This document shows positions 1 through 7,458 of a stretch of DNA of 64,000 bases, in pieces. The position numbers and the translations under genes were made by a program. The stretch is from positions 1 to 64,000 of the forward strand of contig NZ_KB898050.1 in assembly GCF_000377345.1 (NCBI RefSeq). The letters are read 5' to 3'. Position 1 is the stretch's first letter. Every line of letters begins with the position of its first letter. The stretch is from Thioalkalivibrio sp. ALJ16 (GTDB lineage Bacteria; Pseudomonadota; Gammaproteobacteria; Ectothiorhodospirales; Ectothiorhodospiraceae). A model generated the notes under the pieces. It did no database searches and was not told where the DNA came from. It worked only from the letters and a program-made list of their open reading frames with translations.

Positions 1-141
1 AACCGGAACATCCATCACATCAATGACATTGCCATTCGTAACGCCGACGGGGCGAACGAGATGCAGCAGGCCGTCGAGGCACTGGAGGCACTGGCGCAGC
101 AGCTGCAGGGCGAGGTTGCGGGGTTTCGCCAGCAGGCCTAG
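1..141 (+). CDS. Methyl-accepting chemotaxis protein, C-terminal end (partial)
   Basis: The window opens inside this gene, and only the last 46 codons are present. The frame starting at base 1 reads to a TAG at 139-141. The peptide is a helical heptad tail, with the segment LEALAQQLQGEVAGF followed by RQQA. The pattern A-x-L-x-x-L-A-x-x-L-x-x-x-V-x-x-F is the usual end of the cytoplasmic signalling hairpin of chemoreceptors, which controls CheA via CheW. No CheR-binding NWETF-like pentapeptide follows. The stop codon lies inside a CTAG that was duplicated by insertion of the adjacent 280-bp element, so the receptor keeps its natural end. The identification rests only on this tail. Confidence 0.7.
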   Translation, partial: NRNIHHINDIAIRNADGANEMQQAVEALEALAQQLQGEVAGFRQQA

Positions 142-421
142 GGGGACGCTGATTGAATCGCACGTCCGCGCTCGAGTCGCTTTTGCGTGCGAACAAGGCG
201 CGGTGACTGCCGTGCAGTCATTCTGCACAAGGGAACCGCAACGCCGTGCGCGCGCAAAAGCGGCCGAGCCCCTGCTTTCATTGGCTTGTGGGGTTGGTGC
301 CCCCTGTTCCCCGATCCTGCGTTGCGCCGCTTGCGGGTAGAACCACTACCCGCTGCACGACACGCCTTGTCTCGGAAAACAGGGGGCACCAACGCGGACG
401 TGCGATTCAATCAGCGTCTCC
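142..421 (+). mobile_element. MITE-like 280-bp element, copy 1 (with CTAG duplications at 138-141 and 422-425)
   Basis: This is a non-coding element with 29-bp terminal inverted repeats at 142-170 and 393-421, which differ at one base near the outer end. It is flanked on both sides by CTAG. A second copy of identical length lies at 6729-7008 in inverted orientation and is about 95 percent identical by eye. Internally it holds a perfect 16-bp inverted pair (293-308 with 378-393) and a hairpin with 8-bp arms (333-340 with 346-353). No ORF in it looks coding. The size, terminal repeats, fixed length and target duplication fit a miniature inverted-repeat element mobilised in trans. A 4-bp YTAR-type target recalls IS5-group elements, but the parent transposon is not in the window. 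Confidence 0.85.
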
Positions 422-479
422 CTAGGAGCCTGTCGGATTCGGGAACAGCGGCCGGTGGCCAGCCGTTTCCGGCGCGTCG

Positions 480-5952: not shown

Positions 5953-6034
5953 TTCGGCACGCCACGCCGTCGCGTGAACAATCCCCCGGTCGTCGTGTCC
6001 CATTTCTGCAATGGCAGATAACGGGAGGTACGGC

Positions 6035-7458
6035 ATGCGAGCGGGAATGAAACGAGGCGACGCCATCCGCACCGGTGCGCTGGTCGCGGGGCTGGCCCTG
6101 ATGGGCTCGGCCCTGGCCGGCGAGGTGGTCGAGGAAGGCATCTCCAGCGAGTACGAACAGTTCGATCTCGTGCGGGTGGCCGGTGATCTGGAGCACCCCT
6201 GGTCGGTGGCCTTCCTGCCGGACGGCGGCTATCTGGTGACCGAACGCACGGGTGCGCTGAAACAGGTGCGCGATGGCGAGGTGAGCTCGGTCGAGGGTGT
6301 GCCGGAGGTCGTGGCGCGCGGTCAGGGCGGCTTGCTGGAGGTTGCGCTGCACCCGGACTTCGCGGCGAACCACCGGGTGTACTTCACCTATGTCACCGGG
6401 GATTCCGATCAGTCCTACACCGCGCTGGGCCGCGGGCGCCTGGAGGACGGGGCCCTGCACGACGTGGAGGAGCTGTTTCGCCAGGACCGGGGCGGGAGCA
6501 ATCCGGGCCACTTCGGTTCGCGGCTGGCCTGGCAGGCCGATGGCACCCTGCTGATGACGATCGGCGATCGACGCCAGGAGGACCCGGCCCAGGACCTGTC
6601 CGCGCATACCGGGTCCCTGCTGCGCCTGACCGAGGATGGCGAGGCCCCGGCGGATAACCCGTTTGTAGACCGCGATGATGCCCAGCCGCACATCTTTGCC
6701 TATGGCCTGCGCAATTCGCAGGGGCTAGGGAGACGCTGATTGAATCGCACGTCCGCGTTGGCGCCCCCTGTTTTCCGAGGCAAGGCGCGTCGTGCAGCGG
6801 GTAGTGATTCTACCCGCAAGCGGCGCAACGCAGGATCGGGGAACAGGGGGCACCAACCCCACAAGCCATTGAAAGCAGGGGCTCGGCCGCTTTTGCGCAC
6901 GCACGGCGTTGCGGCTCCCTTGTGCAGAATGACTGCACCGCAGTCACCGCGCCTTGTTCGCACGCAAAAGCGACTCGAGCGCGGACGTGCGATTCAATCA
7001 GCGTCTCCCTAGTGGTGGATCCGGAGGACGGCACGATCTGGCTGACGGACCACGGGCCCCGGGGCGGGGATGAACTGAATCGCATGGAAGCCGGGGGCAA
7101 CTACGGCTGGCCGGTGGTGTCGCGGGGGCGCGACTATCGGTCCGAGGAACCCTTTGGCGAGGCGCGTTACGACGCGGACATGATCGACCCGGTCTACGAG
7201 TTCCTGCCGACGCTGGCGCCGTCCGGACTGGCGATGGTCACGGCGGATCGCTTCGGGTCCTGGCAAGGCAATCTGTTGGCGGGCGGCCTGCGTGCTGAAC
7301 GGATCCTGCGCATCGTGATCGAGGACGACGAAGTCGTGCACATAGAAGAGCTGCTGCACGGCAAGATCGGGCGCATTCGCGATGTCCGCGAGGGACCGGA
7401 GGGGCACATCTACGTGCTGACGGACCATTCGGATGGCGGGCTTTATCGCCTGGAATGA
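6035..7458 (+). pseudogene. PQQ-dependent aldose sugar dehydrogenase (YliI-like), disrupted by insertion
   Basis: The 5' half (6035-6728) encodes a signal peptide (GALVAGLALMGSALAG) and the blades of a six-bladed beta-propeller dehydrogenase, including HPWSVAFLPDGGYLVTERTG and FGSRLAWQADG. The 3' half (7013-7458) resumes with VVDPEDGTIWLTDHGPRGGD and EAGGNYGWPVV. Between them is a 280-bp mobile element plus one duplicated CTAG, which brings in a TGA at 6737. Removing 6729-7012 joins GGG-CTA-GTG-GTG in frame and rebuilds about 379 aa, close to the E. coli YliI length (about 371). The start at 6035 follows a good ribosome site (GGGAGGT at 6022-6028). Both halves are otherwise intact, so the loss appears recent. 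The enzyme would oxidise aldoses in the periplasm. Confidence 0.9.
6729..7008 (-). mobile_element. MITE-like 280-bp element, copy 2 (with CTAG duplications at 6725-6728 and 7009-7012)
   Basis: Same length as the copy at 142-421 but in the opposite orientation. The 29-bp terminal inverted repeats (6729-6757 and 6980-7008) are perfect here. It is flanked by CTAG on both sides, and one CTAG plus the element accounts exactly for the interruption of the sugar dehydrogenase gene, which shows the empty target site was a single CTAG. The internal palindromes of copy 1 are conserved. It carries no credible ORF, so it must be mobilised in trans if it moves at all. Confidence 0.92.

Follow-up and report, generated by a model that had tools for sequence, protein, structure and literature searches.

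The closest precedent for the element described here is the MITEPsy1/ISPsy2 (IS5 family) system of Pseudomonas syringae pv. phaseolicola, for which transposition has been demonstrated in vivo (PMC3189936). Like the Thioalkalivibrio MITE, MITEPsy1 is non-coding, carries IS5-like outer repeats, is flanked by a 4-nt duplication at CTAG or YTAA and has some copies that interrupt coding sequences, but it is 100 bp long with an 18-nt repeat and 6 copies, compared with 280 bp, 29 bp and ~40 copies here, and the sequences are different (PMC3189936). Mobility of the Thioalkalivibrio MITE is read indirectly, from presence or absence between relatives, vs in vivo transposition for MITEPsy1. GTAG-type REPs of Thioalkalivibrio are also palindromic, occur in the same genus and are sometimes found inside genes, but they are only 20–40 bp long, tied to IS200/IS605-like transposases and unrelated to the MITE (PMC3733652). 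This MITE family was undescribed in the open literature searched. For the gene that it interrupts, the comparator is aldose sugar dehydrogenase of the GSDH family (2g8s of E. coli; also 7cdy).

The interrupted gene and the element within it

The window (the whole stretch of DNA analysed, 64,000 nt) contains a GSDH (aldose sugar dehydrogenase-like) gene in two parts, both on the forward strand: a 5′ part with a signal-peptide-like start (6,035–6,727) and a 3′ part that runs to the stop codon (7,012–7,458). The match to PF07995 (GSDH) breaks exactly at the MITE, with profile positions 1–186 upstream (E 7.8e-66) and 185–332 downstream (E 2.1e-49), so that the two halves together span the 332-position domain; intact orthologues score across the whole profile. 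The nearest solved structure to the upstream half is 2g8s (residues 15–203, E 4.7e-42), and the downstream half aligns to residues 202–349 of the same protein. Fused across a single CTAG, the two flanks encode AYGLRNSQGL-VVDPEDGTIW in one frame, confirming the proposal of an earlier note on this DNA that excising the element plus one CTAG (6,729–7,012) restores ~379 codons, with RNSQGL joined to VVDPEDG. The rejoined frame has 379 codons from ATG 6,035, followed by a stop at 7,456–7,458, or 387 codons from an alternative ATG at 6,011.

In its present form the upstream frame enters the MITE and ends at TGA (6,737–6,739), four codons past the junction, and the downstream half, open in frame with a GTG (6,922) inside the MITE, lacks both the signal peptide and the N-terminal half of the protein. 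In soluble quinoprotein glucose dehydrogenase, the segments that we take to form the PQQ and calcium site are H (in GHFG), RN.Q, HGPRGGDE and RIRDVR. Compared with these aldose sugar dehydrogenases (2g8s, 7cdy), the gene is broken between the RNxQGL and HGPRGGDE segments. Because conserved PQQ/calcium segments fall on both halves, each would hold active-site residues and the break would separate parts of the active site; the interrupted gene is predicted to yield no functional protein.

The MITE body (6,729–7,008, forward strand; 280 bp) is defined by its boundaries, homologous copies and fold, and has no coding capacity, the ORFs within it being spurious only. The left terminal inverted repeat (29 bp, GGAGACGCTGATTGAATCGCACGTCCGCG; 6,729–6,757, forward strand) is the perfect complement of the right (29 bp; 6,980–7,008, reverse strand), and a CTAG lies on either side of the element (6,725–6,728 and 7,009–7,012); with these counted in, 6,725–6,757 and 6,980–7,012 form a 33-nt inverted repeat that is 100% complementary. 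Folded whole as a single strand (−108 kcal/mol; z = −12 vs shuffles), the MITE is a fold-back with a 37-bp terminal stem and two side hairpins, both imperfect and internal (6,757–6,778/6,836–6,857 and 6,888–6,904/6,956–6,972). It matched no Rfam family at E up to 0.1. A chance pattern is excluded because of the fold score and the ~40 homologous places in its own 2.76-Mb genome. The 280-bp MITE-like insertion first claimed from the sequence is therefore upheld by exact boundaries, a perfect 29-bp terminal repeat and many genomic copies.

Uninterrupted relatives and age of the insertion

BLAST with the interrupted gene as query identified nine relatives with contiguous flanks: ALE31 (G004), ALE14 (G022), AKL19 (G011), ALJ3 (G005), ALJ21 (G001), ALJ7 (G024), T. 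thiocyanoxidans ARh2 (G021), G025 and G029. Both flanks of the MITE correspond to one gene that is uninterrupted in all nine, in agreement with insertion into an intact GSDH gene. The flanks are 95–96% identical to those of ALE31 and ALE14, and the uninterrupted gene in both of these strains supports insertion after the split from them.

The insertion could alternatively be old and shared: on this reading the gene became a pseudogene long ago in the lineage, and its neat junction survived by coincidence. Since the split from ALE31, codon changes on the window lineage number 5 amino-acid-changing and 11 silent, vs 3 and 21 along the ALE31 branch; the ratio hints at relaxation, though not significantly (Fisher p = 0.23). 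However, the insert is missing from all nine relatives that have the gene, neither GSDH half contains a frameshift or stop, and the terminal repeat and CTAG duplication at this locus are still perfect, making an old insertion very unlikely. A shared insertion with decay mutations, which the earlier note had named as evidence against a recent event, is absent from all nine relatives carrying the gene. The description ‘recent’ holds relative to ALE31 and ALE14 (no insert, perfect repeats, open halves, largely synonymous changes) but comes with no date: the insertion is supported as young relative to the species split, and is undated.

Target site and its duplication

Base-by-base reading of seven relatives gave a single 4-mer at the empty site in 7/7, CTGG (within GGGCTGGTGGT or GGTCTGGTGGT), and CTAG at this position in 0/7. 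The expectation of an empty CTAG site within an intact gene was therefore borne out for the intact gene and the single 4-mer but not for its sequence, and CTAG as the target is supported by the flanks here but not by the seven empty sites. A single silent change, CTG to CTA, produces CTAG at the insertion site, and we infer that this synonymous change on the window lineage created the target just before insertion. CTAG is rare in the window (12 in 63 kb, vs 2,826 one-mismatch sites), so an element inserting strictly at CTAG should mostly hit freshly mutated sites; for such an element, at 2–12% divergence, 60–78% of empty sites are expected to be one mismatch away from CTAG.

The flanking 4-mers of 104 distinct copies were CTAG/CTAG (42), TTAA/TTAA (13), matched but non-palindromic (7; TTAG, CTAA, CTGG/CCAG, CAAG), inverted (4) or unmatched (38). 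Direct non-palindromic repeats, e.g. TTAG/TTAG and CAAG/CAAG, can derive only from the target, so the MITE makes a real 4-bp target duplication, and the possibility that CTAG is part of the element is ruled out by the same 4-mers. The CTAG copies at 6,725–6,728 and 7,009–7,012 are assigned as target duplication from matched 4-mers at other copies and, for the left one, also from the single 4-mer in seven relatives. A single CTAG was found in the empty sites at L298, L193/L315, L018 and L055, and as one of two states at L023. The 4-bp duplication proposed earlier thus stands, with CTAG here and matched CTAG, TTAA, TTAG, CTAA, CAAG or CTGG at other copies.

A different origin of the flanks would have the MITE bring CTAG (or TTAA) ends with it and overwrite the four bases of the target, in a coupling-sequence-like manner or by conversion. 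This would account for empty sites that differ from the filled site by at least two bases, and where flanks are near-identical the empty 4-mer often does differ from the filled one (at this locus CTGG, in seven relatives; elsewhere ACAG, CCAC, CTGA, TGGA and CGAA/CGAG). TTAA- and CTAG-flanked copies are also somewhat clustered on the MITE tree (parsimony 10 changes; 0/300 shuffles as low), a signal that was not relied on as it comes partly from three related long copies of strain ALJT. Such carry-over is nevertheless highly improbable: direct non-palindromic repeats occur, the scarcity of CTAG itself predicts mostly newly mutated targets with the one-mismatch share given above, and 4-mer sharing by nearest-neighbour copies is within chance (p = 0.28). 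Where one flank is not CTAG, carry-over predicts the odd flank at the empty site, but the empty site is CTAG (L018, L055). Carry-over of donor flanks was therefore rejected as the explanation for non-CTAG empty sites, its predictions having failed at L018/L055 and among nearest neighbours, with CTAG rarity explaining most cases.

The classical target-duplication model is kept, one excess notwithstanding. Empty sites at least two bases off the filled 4-mer, within nearly identical flanks, are slightly commoner than a simple strict-target model gives (L004, ACAG; L035/L296, CCAC; L029, CTGA; L164/L281, TGGA or TAGA; L208 [L208:2968], CCAA; L089, GCGA), and local fast evolution may lie behind them.

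Two further sites have unusual flanks. At L310 (G025:C1:154398-154671), a MITE copy lies inside a conserved gene in which relatives read GCC GAR AAC; CTAG there gives an in-frame TAG, so either, under the classical model, a nonsense mutation had disrupted the gene ahead of the insertion, or the duplicated bases are something other than a straight copy. L028, with L260 and L270, has inverted TTAG..CTAA flanks at an insertion apparently common to three strains, an arrangement that could result from quasi-palindrome correction of the fold-back.

The MITE family, its likely mover and the effect on the cell

Within the genome, similarity to the MITE runs from 97% identity to older, fragmentary copies. 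A second copy in the window (138–425, reverse strand), 97% identical, has CTAG on both sides and lies past the 3′ terminus of the ORF at 480–2,450. Among 58 genomes, matches were found in 16 of the same genus (own included; 7 to 36 each), with weak matches only in two genomes of the same class and none in the seven genomes that represent other genera within the family. The terminal repeat was identified only in Thioalkalivibrio records among the GTDB genome matches listed. IMG/VR viral contigs yielded no hit to this repeat, and a plasmid collection none to the MITE. Elsewhere, a copy at L026 (G000:C5:96289-96591) seemingly interrupts a cytochrome b561-like coding sequence, with flanks judged by eye. 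An IS5 copy directly adjoins a MITE at L100 (G029:C1:84310-85739), and two MITEs adjoin with one CTAG in common in ALE14 (G022:C31:320454-321039); at both, a CTAG from an earlier duplication has served again as target, producing tandem arrays.

Six contigs of the genome carrying the window (G000: C2, C9, C10, C14, C21 and C27) end at or near a MITE copy, so the repeat family breaks assemblies, but fusion of two contig ends at the repeat as the origin of the junction studied here is barely credible, as both flanks belong to a single gene and a single reading frame and adjoin in relatives, with conservation on either side, and the junction carries a duplication.

The same genome has one PF01609 transposase, at G000:C4, within a 1,220-bp element. 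This protein (328 aa) matches NCBIfam IS5 (NF033581, E 1.4e-92) as well as PF01609, and the element has terminal repeats GGAAACACTGATTTAAT/GGAAACACTGATCAAT and a 4-bp duplication, CTTA. Close relatives of the transposase are present in G029 (three copies, with CTAG or CTAC duplications), G022, G013 and G011. Elements of this type resemble the MITE in outer repeat (GGRRACRCTGATTTAAT), 4-bp duplication and genus, and a YTAR-type target rule is common to both (mostly CTAG, TTAA, TTAG and CTAA for the MITE; CTTA, CTAG and CTAC for the IS). They differ in being 1,200–1,220 bp long with a transposase and in having no internal sequence in common with the MITE, longer matches being due to adjacent MITE copies. 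Compared within the same genome (GGAGACGCTGATTTAATCG vs GGAAACACTGATTTAATCC), the outer 17–18 bases are shared with two differences; the G013 copy, which starts AGAGACGCTGATTTAATTCG, is close to the MITE end and a closer match than the own-genome IS. As the own-genome copy matches only in these outer bases, and with differences, the immediate parent of the MITE is unproven, and lack of leftover internal sequence is common in MITEs. A degenerate IS of G011 with a 52-bp edge match to the MITE was considered and rejected as parent: in the alignment this IS stops at TTAG, and the 52 matching bp belong to the remnant of a neighbouring MITE.

The MITEPsy1/ISPsy2 pair (PMC3189936) suggests, by analogy, an IS5 transposase as the likely mover, either this one or, we infer, a relative since lost. 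Exact boundaries with terminal repeats and direct 4-bp repeats, the empty sites of relatives, the copy number and an IS5 element of this genome with a matching outer repeat and a 4-bp duplication make it, in our view, very likely that an IS5-type MITE was moved in trans into a CTAG of the GSDH gene, duplicating four bases and splitting the gene. In the proposed sequence of events, a silent CTG to CTA change would first have made CTAG in the gene. An IS5-family transposase would then have acted in trans on the outer repeat (GGAGACGCTGATT...) of the segment at 6,729–7,008, on this account an IS5-type, non-autonomous MITE, which would have inserted into the mid-gene CTAG with duplication of those four bases, leaving two half-genes and an in-frame stop four codons past the junction.

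With lysS and a convergent glgB as its neighbours, the interrupted gene is a solitary one, so polar effects of the insertion are unlikely. An intact second GSDH paralogue, 42% identical in the N-terminal part, is present at G000:C9:40243-41235, and the complete relatives G002 and G009 have only this paralogue, without an orthologue of the interrupted gene. PqqE and PqqC are below the family cut-off in this genome and in all 22 same-genus genomes searched with it; because neither reaches the cut-off, a PQQ-dependent activity would need external PQQ from the medium, as for E. coli Asd. In view of the paralogue, the absence of PqqE and PqqC above cut-off and the two relatives without the gene, the earlier note's loss of periplasmic PQQ-dependent sugar oxidation was overstated: loss of activity is plausible for this predicted GSDH protein but not established for the organism. 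The interrupted gene is dispensable, and the effect on sugar metabolism is probably modest.

Disruptions like that of the GSDH gene are commonplace and well documented; this one is a clean case with empty sites in named strains, and it puts on record a genus-wide Thioalkalivibrio MITE family with a likely IS5 partner. Because CTAG is rare in Thioalkalivibrio genomes, a silent codon change can make the target into which such a MITE inserts.
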